Assembly (NCBI GenBank): GCA_002869065.1
Contig: PKTR01000001.1
Span: 301,118-365,117 of the forward strand
DNA: 64,000 bases
Direction of reading: 5' to 3'
Source: Hyphomicrobiales bacterium
GTDB taxonomy: Bacteria > Pseudomonadota > Alphaproteobacteria > Rhizobiales > Rhodobiaceae
Below are positions 53,201 to 63,745 of this stretch, one piece after another (positions within the stretch are counted from its first letter, which is position 1; the number at the start of each line of letters is the position of its first letter). Made by a program: the position numbers and the translations under genes. The notes under the pieces are model-generated. The model did no database searches. It was not told where the DNA came from and saw nothing but the letters and a program-made list of their open reading frames with translations.

Positions 53201-53758
53201 GAGCACTTCGAGCATTTCCTCGCGGTGGCCGGAGAGATTGGCCTCGAGCACCGTCGGGATCGCCTCGATCTGGTCCTTCAGCTTGCGCGCGTGCGTATAA
53301 AGCGTGCGTTCCGGCACATTGCCCGACAGCGTCACAACGATGGTCGGAACGAGGCTGAAATTGGTCTCGGTGATGGTCGGCTCGTCCGCCTCCTCGGGCA
53401 GCTCCGCCTTTGCCTGGTCGACCTTGTCGCGGACGTCGGCAAGCGCCTCGTCCTTGTCGAAATCAACAGTGAATTCAAGGATGATCGCCGCGTGGCCTTC
53501 CGAGGCGACGGCGGTGATTTCCTTCAGCCCGTCGAGACCGCGCAGGGCGGTTTCCATCGGCCGCACCAAGAGGCGCTCGGAATCTTCCGGCGAAATGCCC
53601 TGTTGCGGCACCGAGACGATGAACACCGGCACGTCGATGTCCGGGTTCGCGTCCTTCGGAATGCTGGTGTAGGCGACGATGCCGGCGATCACCATCGCGA
53701 CCATCAGCGTGAGGATCGAGCGTGGCCGCCTGAGCGCGGATTCGAGCGGTCCCGTCAT
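50228..53758 (-). CDS. RND efflux transporter permease
   Basis: This inner-membrane proton antiporter of the RND superfamily (AcrB/HAE1-like) is 1176 residues long, longer than the usual 1030-1050. The transmembrane proton-relay motif reads MLVDGAIVVVEY (D398-G399), with glycine replacing the second aspartate. Two extra hydrophobic stretches (about 499-520 and 538-560) sit in the central cytoplasmic loop after TM6. A Cys-Cys pair lies at 727-728. The acidic/Ala C-terminal tail is low-complexity. It overlaps the adaptor by four bases (ATGA). Confidence 0.92.
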   Translation of the reverse strand: MTGPLESALRRPRSILTLMVAMVIAGIVAYTSIPKDANPDIDVPVFIVSVPQQGISPEDSERLLVRPMETALRGLDGLKEITAVASEGHAAIILEFTVDFDKDEALADVRDKVDQAKAELPEEADEPTITETNFSLVPTIVVTLSGNVPERTLYTHARKLKDQIEAIPTVLEANLSGHREEMLEVLIDTMKLESYDVTQQELLNALTRNNQLVPAGFLDTGKGRFNVKVPGLIESRADVYALPIKQNGEGVVTLGDVAEIRRTFKDRTSITKVNGQQAIAIEVVKRLGTNIIDNNDQVRKVVDDFVKSWPKTIKVNYLLDQSSFINEVHSSLESAIMTAVFLVMVLVVGALGMRSALLVGAAIPTSFMIGFLILGFAGMTVNMMVMFGLVLTVGMLVDGAIVVVEYADRKMAEGMEPDEAYIRAAKLMLWPIVSSTATTLAAFLPMLLWPGVSGEFMSYLPIMVIIVLSAALVTAMLFLPATGAIVARLSGWFGRRALGMISLAVGFATAAVGAIVVSGALPAVAGALGLGDGTGAIAKALPLAILIIGGIALTFLLRPVLRPLVVWQKRRARQRAARDMEAAQRLSGPGHFHPELIGGMTGAYLRFIAPLVTHPAGNVVVIVAMIAIGAVVFTTFSANNAGVEFFVEEEPDVAVVLVSARGNLSASEASALVGEVEGEVLQIPGIKNVVTKAYPSGQDSGGSIINGVQDRPADLIGEMQIELADYCCRRKAVDIFKDIRARTGPIAGLRVEIRKIEGGPPSGKDLQLQVSSTDYDLLTNIVGKVRAHVDTMDGIRDIEDGRPLPGIEWQLSIDREEAGRFNAAIASVGSMVQLVTNGLLIDRYRPDDSEDEVDIRVRLPESQRTLDRFDQLRLRTENGLVPIANFVTRTPQPKVSSITRKDGLYAMTVKANALKEQGVSPDAKVGELDAWLKTQDWPDNIFFRFRGADEDQKEAGDFLGKAMLGSLFLMFIILVTQFNSYYQTLLTLSTVVMSVFGVLIGMLATGQKFSIIMTGTGVVALAGIVVNNAIVLIDTYNRFREDGVETVEAVLKTAAQRLRPILLTTITTIAGLVPMASQVSFDFFNQTTSVGGITAIWWVQLSTAVIAGLGFSTLLTLIFIPTMLALPTVWGRMFGLVAQPVDDEEDAASTAKAPEAANDAAAKAADDGDAVPQAAE

Positions 53759-54897
53759 GACCGGGTCTCCTTGGCCTTCGGTGCGCTGGCAGCCGCCTTG
53801 GCGTCATCCGCGGCGACCGGAGCGACGATTTCGCCCTCGGCGACGTAGTCCTGGCCGACCGTGATCAGCGTGACCGTGTCGGGCAGGCCGGCAACCCAGG
53901 TGCCTTCATCGGTGTTGCCGAGGATCGTGACGGGGAAGAATTTCACGGCGTTGCTATCGTCGATGGAGCGCACGCCGACGCTGCCGTCATCGGCCAGCAC
54001 CAGCAGCGACGACGACAGGACATGGGCCTTGGTCGGCGGCAGGGTGACAAAGGCCGATGCCGTCACGCCGTCGCGCAGCAGCCCGTTGGCATTGTCGATC
54101 TCGATCTCGACGCGGAAGGTGCGCGTTTGCGCGTCCGCCGAATGCGAGATGAACCGGATCTTGCCGTCGGCGGTCTGGCCGTCGACCAGTTCGACGTGCG
54201 CGTCCATGCCGAGCGACAGAGCACCGACATCGCGCTCCGAGACCTGGCCGGTGATCAGCATCGGATCGGCATTGAGCACGGTCGCGCAAACCGAGCCGGT
54301 GCTCAGCGTCTCGCCGATCTCGATCAGCGGCGTCTCGACGATGCCGTCGGAAGGGGAGGTGATGCGGGTGCGGGAGAGTTCGACCTCGGCCTCGGTGACG
54401 GCTGCGGCTGCCGCATCATGCGTTGCTTTCAGCGCGCGCAGTTTGGTTTCTGCGGTGAAGCCCTTCTTGATCAGCTCGCTGGCAGCCTCGTAGTCCAGTT
54501 GCGTCTGGGCGAGTTGCGCGCGGGCCTGCATCACGCGCGCCTCGCGCGCCGCCGTGTCGATGCGACACAACAGATCGCCCTTTTTGACGATGTCGCCTTC
54601 GGTGACCGGCCGCTCGACGACCAGACCGGCTGTTTCCGCACGCACGGCAAGCCGTGCCTCGGCCTCCGTGCGGCCGCGGATTTCCAGCTCGGCGCGCCGT
54701 TCGCCCGCCGTGAAGGTGGCAACCCGCACGCGGAACGGCTCATTGTCGGCGCGTGCAAGCCGCGTCGCGGGGGCTTCCGCGTCGGAGCCGGTATCGCTCT
54801 GGCCGCCGATCACGAGGTTGCCCGTTCCCATCCACACGCCAACGGCGCCAACAATCGCCAGGGCCGTTATGTGCGACCAACGAATGCCCATTACCAT
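53755..54897 (-). CDS. RND efflux periplasmic adaptor
   Basis: The 380-residue membrane-fusion protein bridges the permease to an outer-membrane channel. A membrane anchor or signal near residues 8-26 precedes lipoyl half-motifs and an alpha hairpin (AREARVMQARAQLAQTQLDY). The beta-barrel domain follows, with DGIVETPLIEIGE. No lipobox cysteine is seen. No outer-membrane factor gene is nearby, so one encoded elsewhere is probably used. Confidence 0.93.
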   Translation of the reverse strand: MVMGIRWSHITALAIVGAVGVWMGTGNLVIGGQSDTGSDAEAPATRLARADNEPFRVRVATFTAGERRAELEIRGRTEAEARLAVRAETAGLVVERPVTEGDIVKKGDLLCRIDTAAREARVMQARAQLAQTQLDYEAASELIKKGFTAETKLRALKATHDAAAAAVTEAEVELSRTRITSPSDGIVETPLIEIGETLSTGSVCATVLNADPMLITGQVSERDVGALSLGMDAHVELVDGQTADGKIRFISHSADAQTRTFRVEIEIDNANGLLRDGVTASAFVTLPPTKAHVLSSSLLVLADDGSVGVRSIDDSNAVKFFPVTILGNTDEGTWVAGLPDTVTLITVGQDYVAEGEIVAPVAADDAKAAASAPKAKETRS

Positions 54898-54923: not shown

Positions 54924-55478
54924 CTATTCCGCGGCTTCTTTGGCCGCGTCGCCCGATTTTGTTCCTGCGATTTCCTCAAGCTCGAAGCGGGAGCCTTCGA
55001 GCTGGGCGATCGCGCATGATTTGCAGGAAATGCCGTAGCGCAGCGCCCAGCGCCCGCCGGCATGTTCCGTCGCTGCATAAATCTCCTGCAGCGTTTTCAT
55101 TTCCTCGCGCATCGACTCGATGCGCTCGTCGATCATCGCCGTGATCTTCTCCTTCGGCAGGATGTCGGCGAACATCGCCACGAGCAGGAACTCGGAGCGG
55201 AAGATGTCACGCCCCGGCGGTTCCGCGAGCGCATTTTCCAGCTCTTTGCGCCCGCACTCGGTAATCGAGTAGATCTTGCGCGGCGGTTTGCCCGCATGCA
55301 GCTCCTGACGGACGGTGACGCAACCATCGGCCTCCAGCCGGGCGAGGGCGGGGTAGATGGAACCGAAGCTCGCATCGACGAAGTAGCTGTATTTCCCTTC
55401 CACCGAAGCTTTCTTGATCTCGTAGCCGGTGGCCTCGTCGAAATAGAGGATCGCCAGACAAAGGGTGCGTACGTTCAT
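54924..55478 (-). CDS. PadR-family transcriptional regulator
   Basis: The 184-residue regulator starts MNVRTLCLAILYFDEATGYEI and contains a winged helix with the recognition segment SFGSIYPALARLEADG. A C-terminal coiled-coil dimer domain follows. A CxxC pair (C152, C155 in ISCKSC) near the C-terminus is not a general feature of PadR and could sense redox state or metal. It is 26 bases upstream of the adaptor and read in the same direction, so it likely autoregulates and controls the pump. Confidence 0.9.
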   Translation of the reverse strand: MNVRTLCLAILYFDEATGYEIKKASVEGKYSYFVDASFGSIYPALARLEADGCVTVRQELHAGKPPRKIYSITECGRKELENALAEPPGRDIFRSEFLLVAMFADILPKEKITAMIDERIESMREEMKTLQEIYAATEHAGGRWALRYGISCKSCAIAQLEGSRFELEEIAGTKSGDAAKEAAE

Positions 55479-55863
55479 CGATGCTGCCTTGCCGGTTGTG
55501 ATTTCCGTGCCGTCTCGGGCGGCGTGGCCGCGGCTCCGCGGCCCATATGCTGATCCGGTATATGTCAGGAACACATATATCGAAACGATATAGATATCGC
55601 CGGATATATGCTTGTCCGATATATGTCAACAAAAAAGGACAGAAATCCTTGCGCTGTCCCGGGCATCACAGAGGCGGCGATGGCGAGTTTCATTTGCAGC
55701 TGCGCTCTGGCCGTTTGGCGGGCATGACACGGGGTCGGGCGGCGGCGCGGCAAATTGGCGGAAAAAAGGGACTCGACGGTTTTCTCCGGCTTGCTAATAT
55801 TCCTCATGTGGCATGCATGATTTGCTGTGCCGCGTAGGCAGGCCTTTTCAAAAGAGGATGGCG
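55479..55863. other. Divergent padR/small membrane protein intergenic region
   Basis: This 385-base gap holds the repeat-rich control region described separately and an otherwise featureless stretch (55630-55840). A weak TCGACG-16-TAATAT pair at about 55773-55800 could drive the plus-strand gene. No coding sequence is supported. Confidence 0.6.
55559..55629. promoter_or_regulatory. Repeat-rich operator and promoter of the padR-RND operon
   Basis: An AT-rich 71-base island in GC-rich DNA holds several dyads. TATATGT-N7-ACATATA (55559-55579) contains an ATGT...ACAT pattern like PadR operators, and ATATCG-AAA-CGATAT (55577-55591) overlaps it. Directly repeated GATATATG elements occur near 55603 and 55619. 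A perfect minus-strand -35 TTGACA (55624-55629) lies inside it, with TATATC 15 bases on. This geometry fits repression by the encoded PadR. Confidence 0.7.
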
Positions 55864-57348: not shown

Positions 57349-58263
57349 ATGACCACGACCGAAGCCGCCAGCGGGGCGGCCACCGCCATCGATCCTGCCG
57401 TAGCGCGCCTGGTTGACCATTTTCAGGCACGCACGCCGATTCGCGCCTGGTCGTTGATCGTCACCGTCTATGGCGACGCCATCGTGCCGCGCGGCGGCGT
57501 GTTGTGGCTCGGCTCGCTGATCGATCTGCTCGACGTCTTCGGCGTCGCGCCGGGTCTGGTGCGCACCGCCGTGTCGCGCCTGACCGCCGACGACTGGCTG
57601 ATGCGCACCCGCGTTGGCCGCAAGAGCTACTACCGGCTGTCGCCGCGCGGCCGTGCTGCCTTTGCCGAGGCGACGCGGCGAATCTATTTCGCCCGCAACG
57701 AGCCGTGGGACGGGCGCTTCCATCTTGCCATTCTCGATGATGGCGGTGAGGGCAACCGTTCCGCCGTGCGCCGCAGCCTTGAGGAAGCCGGCTTCGGTGC
57801 GGTGGCGCCAACCGTGATGATCGCGCCGTCGGGGCGCACGCGCCCAGAACCGGGGCTCGACTACATCCTGATGGAGGGAACCGCCGTTCCCGGCGGCGAC
57901 GCACGGCGGCTTGCCGAGCGCGCCTGGCCGCTTGAGCGTATTGCAGCCGGCTACGAACGTTTCATCGCGCAGTTCGAGCCGCTCGCCGAAGCGCTTGAGG
58001 AGCGCGACCGCCTGTCGCCGCTCGATGCCGTCATCGCCCGCATCCTGCTGGTGCACGAGTTCCGCCGCATCATCCTGCGCGATCCCGAACTGCCGGCGGC
58101 ATTGTTGCCGGAAAACTGGCCCGGCAGTCGCGCCCGCGCATTGAGCGCGCGGCTCTACAAGCGGCTGGTCAACGGCTCGGAAAGCTGGCTCGACCGCCAT
58201 GCCTTTTCCGAGGACGGCCGCCTGCCGCCGCCCGAGCCGGCCTTTTTCGAGCGCTTCGCATGA
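57349..58263 (+). CDS. paaX: Phenylacetate regulator PaaX
   Basis: PaaX represses paa genes until phenylacetyl-CoA binds. The 304-residue product has an N-terminal winged helix (LVRTAVSRLTADDWL) and the conserved arginine-rich wing TRVGRKSYYRLSPRG. A long PaaX C-terminal domain follows, including LVHEFRRIILRDPELP and LPENWPG. The identity rests on these family motifs and the paaK-paaG genes nearby. Its stop overlaps the start of the pseudouridine synthase gene (ATGA). Confidence 0.92.
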   Translation: MTTTEAASGAATAIDPAVARLVDHFQARTPIRAWSLIVTVYGDAIVPRGGVLWLGSLIDLLDVFGVAPGLVRTAVSRLTADDWLMRTRVGRKSYYRLSPRGRAAFAEATRRIYFARNEPWDGRFHLAILDDGGEGNRSAVRRSLEEAGFGAVAPTVMIAPSGRTRPEPGLDYILMEGTAVPGGDARRLAERAWPLERIAAGYERFIAQFEPLAEALEERDRLSPLDAVIARILLVHEFRRIILRDPELPAALLPENWPGSRARALSARLYKRLVNGSESWLDRHAFSEDGRLPPPEPAFFERFA

Positions 58264-59093
58264 CCGAGCGCAATGAACGGCGCGGCCAGAACCCCCGCAA
58301 CAAGTCCGTGCGGCCATCCCGCCCGAGAACGCCGCGCGACGATCGCGCCGAGCGTCCGGCGCGGCCGGAGAGGCCGCCGATAGCCACGCCCGGCATCGAT
58401 CTGCTGCCGCACGTGCTGTTTCGTGACGACAGCCTGATCGTCATCGACAAGCCGGCCGGCATCCCGGTCCATGCGGGGCCGAAGGGCGGCGTGACCATCG
58501 AGCACGGCTTTCCGGCGCTACGCTTCGGCCTGCCGTGGGACCCGCAACTCGGCCACCGGCTCGACAAGGACACATCGGGCTGTCTGGTGCTGGGGCGTGA
58601 TCGCAAGGCGCTCGGCCGCCTCGGCAAGCTGTTCACCGCCAATCGCATTGAAAAGACCTACTGGGCGGTTGTCGAGGGCGGACCGTCGACGGACACGGGC
58701 CGCATCGCGCTGTCGCTGTCGAAGCGGGAAAAGGCGCGCGGCTGGCATATGCGGGTCGACCCGAAGGGCCAGCCGGCGGAGACCTATTTCCGCGTTCTTG
58801 GCCGCTCGGAACGCCTCACATGGCTGGAACTGAAGCCGAAAACCGGCCGCACCCACCAGCTTCGTGTGCATTGCTCGGCGAAGGGCTGGCCGATCCTCGG
58901 CGACACGGTCTACGCCAAGGCGGGAGCCAGCGCGCCGCGCCTGCATCTCCACGCCCGCTCGATCGAGCTGCCGTTCTATCCGAACGCCAAGTCGGTCCGC
59001 GTCACGGCGCCGGTTCCCGACGACATGATCGAAGCGTTGAAGCTGTGCGGCTGGAAGGGCGAGAGCGCGCGCACGCCGCGCGACAGAACCTAG
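58260..59093 (+). CDS. RluA-family RNA pseudouridine synthase
   Basis: The enzyme isomerises uridine in rRNA or tRNA. The 277-residue protein has a basic, disordered N-terminus of about 50 residues. The catalytic motif GHRLDKDTSG (Asp nucleophile) and TGRTHQLRVHC follow. No S4 domain is seen. The start overlaps the paaX stop, so the two are translationally linked. The gene meets the TetR gene head-on with a four-base overlap. Confidence 0.92.
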   Translation: MTERNERRGQNPRNKSVRPSRPRTPRDDRAERPARPERPPIATPGIDLLPHVLFRDDSLIVIDKPAGIPVHAGPKGGVTIEHGFPALRFGLPWDPQLGHRLDKDTSGCLVLGRDRKALGRLGKLFTANRIEKTYWAVVEGGPSTDTGRIALSLSKREKARGWHMRVDPKGQPAETYFRVLGRSERLTWLELKPKTGRTHQLRVHCSAKGWPILGDTVYAKAGASAPRLHLHARSIELPFYPNAKSVRVTAPVPDDMIEALKLCGWKGESARTPRDRT

Positions 59094-59731
59094 CTCTTGC
59101 TCTCGGAGAGCGGCCGGATGGCCTTCAGATTGGTGAGGTCTAGGTTCTTGGTGCCCTCGACGACGAGCTGGGTCGCCATCGCGGCGTAATCCTGCCGGCT
59201 GATCGGCCCGTCCGGGCGGAACCACAGATAGTGCCAGTTGAGCATGCCGAAGAGCGACATGGTGACGGGCTTCAGGGCCTTGCTGCCATGGTCGAGCGAG
59301 GGATTGGCGGCGACCAGCGCGTCGGAGAACAGCCGCACCAGCTCGCGCTCGAGTTCCTTGATGTCTTCCTGACGCTCGGCCGGCAGGCGCTTCAGATCGT
59401 TGATCTGCACCTTGTGCTCGGCGTCGGCGTCGCGATAGGCCTCGAGCAGCGCCGTCGACAGTGCGATCAGCTTCTCGACCGGCTCGCCCTTCGTCTGCGC
59501 CGCCTTGCTGCAGCCTTCGATCAGCGACTGCAGATGCCGCTCGATGATGTCGAACAGCAGCGCTTCCTTGTTGGCGTAGTAGTGATAGAGCAGGGCCTTG
59601 GAGACGCCGCAGACGACCGCGATCTGGTTCATCGAGGCGCCGTCATAGCCGCGCTCGGCGAACAACTTGCCGGACACGTCGAGGATCGCGTCCCGCTTGT
59701 CGTCATAGTCGTCCGCGCGTGGCCGGGCCAT
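59090..59731 (-). CDS. TetR-family regulator, probable PaaR
   Basis: The 213-residue repressor has the TetR DNA-binding helix-turn-helix (MNQIAVVCGVSKALLYHYYANKE shortened here: VCGVSKALLYHYY), beginning after MARPRADDYDDKRDAIL. TetR proteins beside paaK control phenylacetate genes in many alpha- and betaproteobacteria. A matching palindrome lies ahead of paaG in this window. The gene follows paaK downstream of a terminator, so it may have its own promoter in 59732-59908. Confidence 0.85.
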   Translation of the reverse strand: MARPRADDYDDKRDAILDVSGKLFAERGYDGASMNQIAVVCGVSKALLYHYYANKEALLFDIIERHLQSLIEGCSKAAQTKGEPVEKLIALSTALLEAYRDADAEHKVQINDLKRLPAERQEDIKELERELVRLFSDALVAANPSLDHGSKALKPVTMSLFGMLNWHYLWFRPDGPISRQDYAAMATQLVVEGTKNLDLTNLKAIRPLSESKS

Positions 59732-59856
59732 GCTGTACTGTCCTTGAGCTTCGTTGCGGGGGCGGGGCTCGGCCGTCATCAACGGTGTTTCGACCCGACC
59801 TGAGAGGGATGTTGCCGTCCCTTAGCGCAAAATTACTGTGCCGTCTCGGCAAAATC

Positions 59857-59895
59857 AAAAAAGCGGCGCAGTTCGGGGTCGTCCTGCCGCGCCGC
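59857..59895 (-). terminator. Terminator after paaK
   Basis: On the minus strand GCGGCGC and GCGCCGC form a 7-bp stem around a 19-base loop, followed by TTTTTT. The opposite end of the hairpin is followed on the plus strand by CTTTTTC. It lies 14 bases past the paaK stop, separating paaK from the TetR gene. Confidence 0.8.
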
Positions 59896-59908
59896 CTTTT
59901 TCTTGTCG

Positions 59909-61219
59909 TCAGTCCTTCGGACGTTCGTCGATGATGCGCTTGGCCTTGCCGACCGAACGCTCGACCGTATCGGGATCGGTCACGTCGATGCGCGCCGAAA
60001 TGCCGATCACCGACTTGATGTGGTGGGCAAGTTCGCGCGACTGCGCGGCCCGCGTCTCTGCCTCGGTCGCATCCGGGCGGGCTTCGACATAGATCTTGAT
60101 CTGGTCGAGCCGGCCTTCGCGGGTCAGGAGGATCTGGTAGTGCGGCGCGAGGCCCTCGCACTTCAGGATCTGCTCCTCGATCTGGGTCGGGAACACGTTG
60201 ACGCCGCGGATGATCATCATGTCGTCCGAGCGGCCGGTGATCTTTTCCATCCGCCGCATCGAGCGCGCCGTGCCCGGCAGAAGGCGGGTGAGGTCGCGTG
60301 TGCGGTAGCGGATCACCGGCATCGCTTCCTTCGACAGCGAGGTGAAGACGAGCTCGCCTTCCTCACCGTCCGGCAGCACTTCGCCGGTCACCGGATCGAC
60401 GATTTCCGGGTAGAAATGGTCTTCCCAGATATGCAGGCCGTCCTTGGTCTCGACGCATTCGCTGGCAACGCCCGGCCCAATCACTTCCGACAGGCCGTAA
60501 ATGTCGACGGCGTGCATGTCGAAGGCGTGCTCGATTTCCTCACGCATCGCGTTGGTCCACGGCTCGGCGCCGAAGATGCCAACCTTAAGCGAGGATTCGC
60601 GCGGGTCGAGGCCCTGACGGCGGAACTCGTCGAGGATCGAGAGCATGTAGGACGGCGTCACCAGAATGATTTCCGGACGGAAATCCTCAATGAGCTGGAC
60701 CTGGCGTTCGGTCATGCCGCCGGACACCGGGATGACGGTGCAGCCGAGCCGCTCCGCGCCGTAGTGCGCGCCGAGACCGCCGGTGAACAGACCGTAGCCG
60801 TAGGAGACATGCGCCTTGAACCCCTTGCGGCCGCCGGCCGCGCGGATCGAGCGCGCCATGACGCTGGCCCAGGTGTCGATGTCCTTGATGGTGTAGCCGA
60901 CGACGGTCGGCTTGCCGGTCGTGCCGGAGGAGGCGTGCACACGCACGACGTCCTCGCGCGGAACGGCGAACATCCCGAAGGGATAGTTGTCGCGCAGATC
61001 CTGCTTGGCCGTGAACGGGAACTTGCCGAGGTCTGACAGGGTCTTGAGGTCGTCGGGGTGGACGCCGGCGGCGTCGAAGCTTGCCCGGTAATGCGGCACG
61101 TTATCGTAGGCATGACGCACAGACCATTTCAGCCGCTCGAGCTGAAGGGCAGAGATTTCGTCGCGCGAGGCAACCTCGATCGGGTCCAGATCTTCCCGGC
61201 GGGGGCTGAGATCGTCCAC
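59909..61219 (-). CDS. paaK: Phenylacetate-CoA ligase PaaK
   Basis: PaaK activates phenylacetate to phenylacetyl-CoA with ATP, the entry step of the aerobic pathway. The 436-residue adenylate-forming enzyme shows the ASSGTTGKPTVVG phosphate loop and DIYGLSEVIGPG, with GVNVFPTQIEEQIL in the C-terminal domain. The GTG at 61219, preceded by GAGGGAGGAATACA, gives VDDLSPRREDLD. Longer in-frame sequence upstream has no family character. It is the last gene of the paaG-paaI-thiolase-paaK run. Confidence 0.94.
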   Translation of the reverse strand: MDDLSPRREDLDPIEVASRDEISALQLERLKWSVRHAYDNVPHYRASFDAAGVHPDDLKTLSDLGKFPFTAKQDLRDNYPFGMFAVPREDVVRVHASSGTTGKPTVVGYTIKDIDTWASVMARSIRAAGGRKGFKAHVSYGYGLFTGGLGAHYGAERLGCTVIPVSGGMTERQVQLIEDFRPEIILVTPSYMLSILDEFRRQGLDPRESSLKVGIFGAEPWTNAMREEIEHAFDMHAVDIYGLSEVIGPGVASECVETKDGLHIWEDHFYPEIVDPVTGEVLPDGEEGELVFTSLSKEAMPVIRYRTRDLTRLLPGTARSMRRMEKITGRSDDMMIIRGVNVFPTQIEEQILKCEGLAPHYQILLTREGRLDQIKIYVEARPDATEAETRAAQSRELAHHIKSVIGISARIDVTDPDTVERSVGKAKRIIDERPKD

Positions 61220-61283
61220 TGTATTCCTCCCTCTTGTGTCCCCGGTTCTTGTTTTGCTGTCCGGTTTCAAAATTCGTTTGAGT

Positions 61284-62485
<1,202 letters not shown>

Positions 62486-62489
<4 letters not shown>

Positions 62490-62926
62490 ATTCCGCTTCC
62501 TTCGGCTTCGATGAGCGTTCCCTTGATGGTCCGCGACATGCCGCGGAATTCAACGATCGCCACGCCGTTCGCGTTGGTGACCGAGATGTCGTAGATGCCC
62601 GACCGCCCGGCGCGCTGGCGCTCGACGGCATTTGCCGTCAGCACGTCGCCGCTGTGGGCGGGGGCGAGGAAGTTGATCGTGCAGTGCTGCGCCACCGTGC
62701 GCTGGTCATAGGTGTTGCAGGCATAGGCAAAGGCGGAATCGGCGAGCAGGAAGATGTAACCGCCGTGGCAGATGTCGTGGCCGTTGACCATCGAGTCGGT
62801 GATGGTCAGCCTGGCGACCGCATGGCCGGGGCTGACCTCGACGATCTCGATGCCGAGCGAGCGGGCGGCCTTGTCGTCCTCCCACATCGCATCGGCGCAG
62901 GCTTGGGCAAGCTGTTGTGCGTCCAT
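62486..62926 (-). CDS. paaI: Hydroxyphenylacetyl-CoA thioesterase PaaI
   Basis: PaaI is a hotdog-fold thioesterase that releases CoA from dead-end intermediates of phenylacetate breakdown. The 146-residue protein carries the catalytic-region motif [19 protein letters not shown]. It also has [14 protein letters not shown]. It is 18 bases after paaG and overlaps the thiolase gene by four bases, so it is part of the operon. Confidence 0.93.
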
Positions 62927-62944
62927 TGGCGTCTCTTTTGCTCC

Positions 62945-63745
62945 TCAGGCCTTCTTGCGGCCGGTGAAGGACGGCGCGCGCTTTTCCATGAAGGCGCGCA
63001 CGCCCTCGGCATAGTCGGGGGTGCGCCCGGCAGTGCCCTGCAAATCGCGTTCGAGATCGAGCTGCTGGTCGAGCGTGTTGGTGGCCGCCGCGTCGATCGC
63101 CTGCTTGATGAGGCCGTAGCCGACGGTCGGGCCCTTGGCGAAGTTCGCCGCCATGCCGCTTGCCGTGTCCATCAGCGCGTCGTCGTCGACAGCCTTCCAG
63201 ATCAGGCCCCAGTCCTCGGCCTGTTCGGCGCCGAGCGGTTCGGCAAGAAGCGCAAGACCGCGCGCCCGGGCCGGGCCGACCAGATGGGGCAGCGTCCAGG
63301 TGCCGCCGGAATCCGGCAACAGGCCGATCTTGGCAAAGGCCTGGATGAATTTCGCCGACTTGCCGGCCAGCACGATATCGCAGGCAAGCGCGATATTGGC
63401 ACCGGCGCCGGCGGCGACGCCGTTGACCGCGGCGATCACCGGGAAGGGCAGGGCGCGCAGCTTGCGCACCAGCGGATTGTAGAAGGTCTCGATCGTGTAG
63501 GAGAGGTTCGGCGGTGCTCCGTCGCCCGGGTTCACCCGGTCGGACAGGTCCTGACCGGCGCAGAAACCACGTCCGGCGCCGGTGAGAACGAGCGCGCCGC
63601 AGCTCTCGTCGGCTTCCGCTTCTTCAATCGCCGCGCGCAACGCGATGTGCATCGTCTCGTTGAACGAGTTCAGCCGATCAGGCCGGTTCAGCGTGATGAT
63701 CCTGTAGCCGTCGCGAATCTCGACGAGAATCGGTGTCTCTTCCAT
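62945..63745 (-). CDS. paaG: Phenylacetate-pathway enoyl-CoA isomerase PaaG
   Basis: PaaG converts ring-epoxyphenylacetyl-CoA to its oxepin form and also acts as an isomerase later in the path. The 266-residue crotonase-fold protein has the oxyanion-hole segment AAVNGVAAGAGANIALACD. The family DSGGTWTLPHLVGPARA segment is also present. It is the first gene of the minus-strand run paaG-paaI-thiolase-paaK and lies behind the palindromic operator upstream. Confidence 0.92.
   Translation of the reverse strand: MEETPILVEIRDGYRIITLNRPDRLNSFNETMHIALRAAIEEAEADESCGALVLTGAGRGFCAGQDLSDRVNPGDGAPPNLSYTIETFYNPLVRKLRALPFPVIAAVNGVAAGAGANIALACDIVLAGKSAKFIQAFAKIGLLPDSGGTWTLPHLVGPARARGLALLAEPLGAEQAEDWGLIWKAVDDDALMDTASGMAANFAKGPTVGYGLIKQAIDAAATNTLDQQLDLERDLQGTAGRTPDYAEGVRAFMEKRAPSFTGRKKA

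Follow-up and report, generated by a model that had tools for sequence, protein, structure and literature searches.

The window, which is the whole 64-kb stretch of DNA analysed and comes from Rhodobium, a purple bacterium, harbours a padR regulator gene followed by the genes of an RND efflux pump. The region upstream of padR carries an array of regularly spaced, ATAT-centred half-sites, which in all likelihood acts as a multi-site autoregulatory PadR operator occluding the padR-hlyD-RND promoter. The first-pass annotation had predicted such an operator for the pump operon, and this prediction is well supported by the conservation, the position and the genome-wide specificity of the array. Such a switch is very probably real and conserved, yet largely a conventional case of self-regulation. 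It provides a precise operator prediction for an RND pump operon that is conserved in Hyphomicrobiales and probably under PadR control. The predicted features are listed in Table 1.

Table 1. Predicted features of the padR-hlyD-RND locus and its divergent neighbour (coordinates of the window; dyad scores from the held-out palindromic matrix).
Feature	Position	Strand	Details
RND efflux permease, 1176 aa	50228..53758	-	PF00873, E 7e-154
RND periplasmic adaptor (HlyD/MFP)	53755..54897	-	TIGR01730, E 4.4e-47
padR, PadR subfamily-1 regulator, 184 aa, MNVRTLCLAIL...	54924..55478	-	PF03551, E 1.1e-16; PF10400, E 5.8e-06
Operator array	55544..55629	.	ATAT-centred half-sites in ~15-bp steps over the padR promoter
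Putative operator O3, CATATGCTGATCCGGTATATG	55544..55564	.	dyad 55554; 23.8 bits
Weak junction dyad between O2 and O3	55559..55579	.	dyad 55569; contains ATGT-N7-ACAT; 10.7 bits
Putative operator O2, CATATATCGAAACGATATAGA	55574..55594	.	dyad 55584; 26.4 bits
Candidate -10, TATATC (15-bp spacer) or TATCCG (17-bp spacer)	55601..55608	-	inside half-site; read from sequence
Putative operator O1, TATATGCTTGTCCGATATATG	55605..55625	.	dyad 55615; 24.0 bits
-35 hexamer TTGACA of predicted padR operon promoter	55624..55629	-	perfect match
Candidate own promoter of divergent gene, TCGACG-N16-TAATAT	55773..55800	+	both TCGACG and GCTAATATT unchanged across the three Rhodobium genomes
Small membrane protein, 117 aa	55864..56217	+	divergent neighbour of padR; no Pfam family

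The product of padR possesses the PF03551 winged-helix domain (61.1 bits) and the helical C-terminal domain PF10400 (27.4 bits), both with scores exceeding the curated cut-offs. Together with a length of about 180 aa, this is the domain composition of PadR subfamily 1, and PadR (5x11/6jyi) and AphA (1yg2) are among its nearest solved structures. Orthologs align with the protein from residue 1 (MNVRTLCLAIL), and thus the start codon of padR is fixed. The signature tyrosines, which contact DNA in BsPadR as Y20/Y42 (PMC6457526), are found here as Y19/Y42 and are invariant in 54 PadR orthologs. The operon structure is also kept, with hlyD after padR in 51 of 55 loci and the RND gene in 49; the remaining loci are mostly short stretches.

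The starts of padR (minus strand, 55478) and of the divergent membrane protein gene (plus strand, 55864) flank an AT-rich island. The first-pass annotation described it as 71 bases (55559-55629) with dyads, repeats and a TTGACA, and these bases contain 65% AT, compared with 36% for the window. All of the described elements are present, including ATGT-N7-ACAT at 55562-55576, ATATCG-N3-CGATAT at 55577-55591, GATATATG at both 55603 and 55618, and TGTCAA at 55624-55629, which reads TTGACA on the minus strand. The extent had to be corrected to 55544-55629, since a further CATATG half-site at 55544 moves the array start 15 bp earlier than 55559. Ten out of the 98 ATAT words in the window fall within 55540-55630, and no other 91-bp segment of the window outside the array contains more than two.

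The array covers the TTGACA-based predicted promoter of the regulator's own operon, and O1 is located between and over its -35 and -10. A similar arrangement was observed in many orthologs, in which TTGA[CA] is found 20-24 bp upstream of an ATAT half-site, so that the -10 falls within the array. The hexamers predicted for the padR promoter in the window were not called by a generic sigma-70 scan. Putative operators lying over and just downstream of the predicted promoter would fit repression.

Motif discovery on the ortholog upstream regions returned the odd palindrome cATATATCggaccGATATATg. A palindromic matrix, CATATATCG-N3-CGATATATG, was trained on padR upstream regions from which the three Rhodobium loci had been left out, and its next-best score anywhere else in the 64 kb, after the dyads of the array, was 2.0 bits. 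Palindromes of 21 bp with at most five mismatches occur three times in the array, compared with a mean of 0.05 in 300 dinucleotide shuffles, none of which reached three. The same values were obtained for CATAT-N10-CATAT with at most one mismatch (three in the array, shuffle mean 0.05, 0/300 shuffles reaching three). The ATGT-N7-ACAT dyad, which had been counted among the dyads of the island, turned out to be a weak junction site and is not significant as a single dyad, being matched by 10% of the shuffles. As an operator consensus, ATGT-N7-ACAT was rejected as weak (17/54 ortholog loci, 6.8 in shuffles), and ATGT-N8-ACAT was rejected as well, with five of the 54 loci when one mismatch is permitted and 5.4 expected from shuffles.

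We infer that PadR dimers would bind the 21-bp palindromes. The predicted minus-strand promoter has O1 on its -35 and -10, followed immediately downstream by O2 and O3. The strong dyads are spaced 30-31 bp, about three helical turns, and would therefore lie on the same face of the DNA, from where bound dimers may jointly block RNA polymerase. As the dyad between them is weak, the array is most simply explained by occupancy of alternate dyads on one face of the DNA. The regular spacing also makes cooperative binding plausible. An inducer, presumably a substrate of the pump, would release PadR, and the levels of the pump and of PadR would rise.

Near the pump, at 57349-63745, the window encodes genes which, from their translations alone, resemble phenylacetate catabolism, including PaaX-like and TetR-like regulators, phenylacetate-CoA ligase, thiolase, thioesterase, and enoyl-CoA hydratase. 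Their proximity to the pump makes aromatic acids a guess for the inducer of PadR.

Neighbouring dyads share a half-site, and the sequence of the lattice is hence ambiguous as to the register of occupancy. A conserved design in which the 15-bp lattice with shared half-sites serves a higher-order PadR oligomer, or switching between two registers, is a tentative idea that we consider possible rather than probable. If true, this design would give a graded or switch-like pump response, and the operator logic of this PadR would differ from that of the single ATGT-N8-ACAT box.

The padR orthologs were drawn from 60 relatives and from a genome collection, the relatives of the same genus including Rhodobium orientis. 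Arrays of ATAT half-sites were present in the upstream regions of all 54 distinct padR orthologs. A site of at least 8 bits was found in 54/54 loci, 51 of which are the non-Rhodobium loci used for training the matrix. The step between adjacent dyads is exactly 15 bp in 60 out of 77 cases. The distances from ATAT to ATAT peak at 13-17, 28-32, 43-47, and 59-61 bp, and this period of 15 bp is not seen in the shuffles. The core TTGAxATATATCGnACnAnCATATATC is kept in the three Rhodobium genomes. The first-pass annotation had named free variation of the repeats among relatives as evidence against an operator; the repeats do not vary freely, and the pattern is conserved over the 54 orthologs. In Acetobacterium tundrae, a distant padR homolog (34% identity) likewise has ATATCG/GATATA repeats upstream, behind a TTGACA, which suggests that the motif may reach beyond Alphaproteobacteria.

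For genome-wide specificity, a 36-bp profile built from 27 non-Rhodobium sites was scanned over 61 whole genomes. Of the 31 genomes possessing a close padR ortholog, 28 have their top match no more than 300 bp upstream of this gene, and the three held-out Rhodobium genomes are all among these 28; only the Rhodobium matches are strictly independent, because most of the other genomes supplied sites to the matrix. The strongest apparent exception, on contig 163 of genome G039 (L082), corresponds to a padR start (MNVRT...) cut by the contig end. This gene was not listed by the protein search and was recognised from the array alone, which illustrates that padR orthologs can be located using only the DNA sequence of the array. 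Two further matches away from padR, G053:C11 and G059:C2, were rejected as targets since they lie inside coding ORFs. In the genome of the window, three of the four profile matches correspond to the array. The fourth, C2:909071, is marginal (profile E 0.89, 3.6 bits on the palindromic matrix) and was rejected as a further target, as were the exact core matches C1:110675 and C2:1488036, which are within coding ORFs. A plasmid search with the intergenic region returned no match. Given this confinement to padR, the array is operon-specific, as far as the scan shows, and not a regulon motif.

The first-pass annotation had also suggested that the divergent membrane gene may be controlled together with the pump operon, and an operator shared between the two, for example by looping, is the leading alternative, although an unlikely one. 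In 17 of the 54 ortholog loci, padR is flanked divergently by the membrane gene; these loci include Stappia, Amorphus, and Cohaesibacter, and thus several lineages have retained the two genes side by side. The small membrane protein family itself, with the core PLxRLLxxN...SxAMGxAVMxLP, has members in 24 of 61 Hyphomicrobiales genomes, and no Pfam or NCBIfam model matches it. However, in the 17 paired loci the ATG of the membrane gene is separated from the edge of the array by 128-542 bp, and in Rhodobium its candidate promoter is about 145-150 bp from the array and overlaps no operator. Nor does the operator show joint conservation with the promoter of this gene. Eight genomes possess both genes unlinked and eight further genomes have the membrane gene without a close padR ortholog; in these 16 genomes no match to the array profile was found near the membrane gene. 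Distance, own candidate promoter and array-free unlinked copies taken together, shared control is not supported.

Binding of the array by another protein, such as an IHF-like nucleoid protein or the TetR-like regulator encoded at 59090-59782, is very improbable. Nucleoid proteins can be drawn to AT-rich phased sequences; nonetheless, the array consists of a specific palindrome in exact 15-bp steps, occurs almost exclusively upstream of padR in the genomes, and accompanies padR with or without the divergent gene. AT-rich promoters are also common in GC-rich genomes, but the dyads are almost certainly not incidental to such a composition, because dinucleotide-preserving shuffles yield neither the palindromes nor the 15/30/45 bp periodicity and the pattern recurs across the orthologs.

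For PadR, LadR, and LmrR, the box described in the literature is ATGT-N8-ACAT (PMC4517056; PMC3506622). This canonical box is absent in the window, which possesses ATAT(CG)-type half-sites instead, and it is not enriched in the present orthologs. The box of the array thus departs from the published PadR consensus, and the regular lattice suggests several dimers bound in order. In the literature searched, which included few subscription papers, no precedent was found for an ATAT(CG) lattice or for an alphaproteobacterial PadR-RND system. The regulator itself is similar to the PadR-s1 proteins (Bacillus and Pediococcus PadR, LadR, and AphA) in size, in its two domains and in the signature tyrosines. 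In the autorepression of LmrR at PlmrR, several dimers occupy the regulator's own promoter, with a Hill coefficient of 2.43 (PMC4534193). Similar to LmrR/PlmrR of Lactococcus lactis (PadR-s2), the PadR of the window is a drug-pump regulator with multiple sites at its own promoter, here as predicted from the sequence. In contrast to LmrR, which recognises ATGT-N8-ACAT and is associated with an ABC transporter, the system described here combines ATAT(CG) half-sites, a 15-bp lattice and an RND pump.
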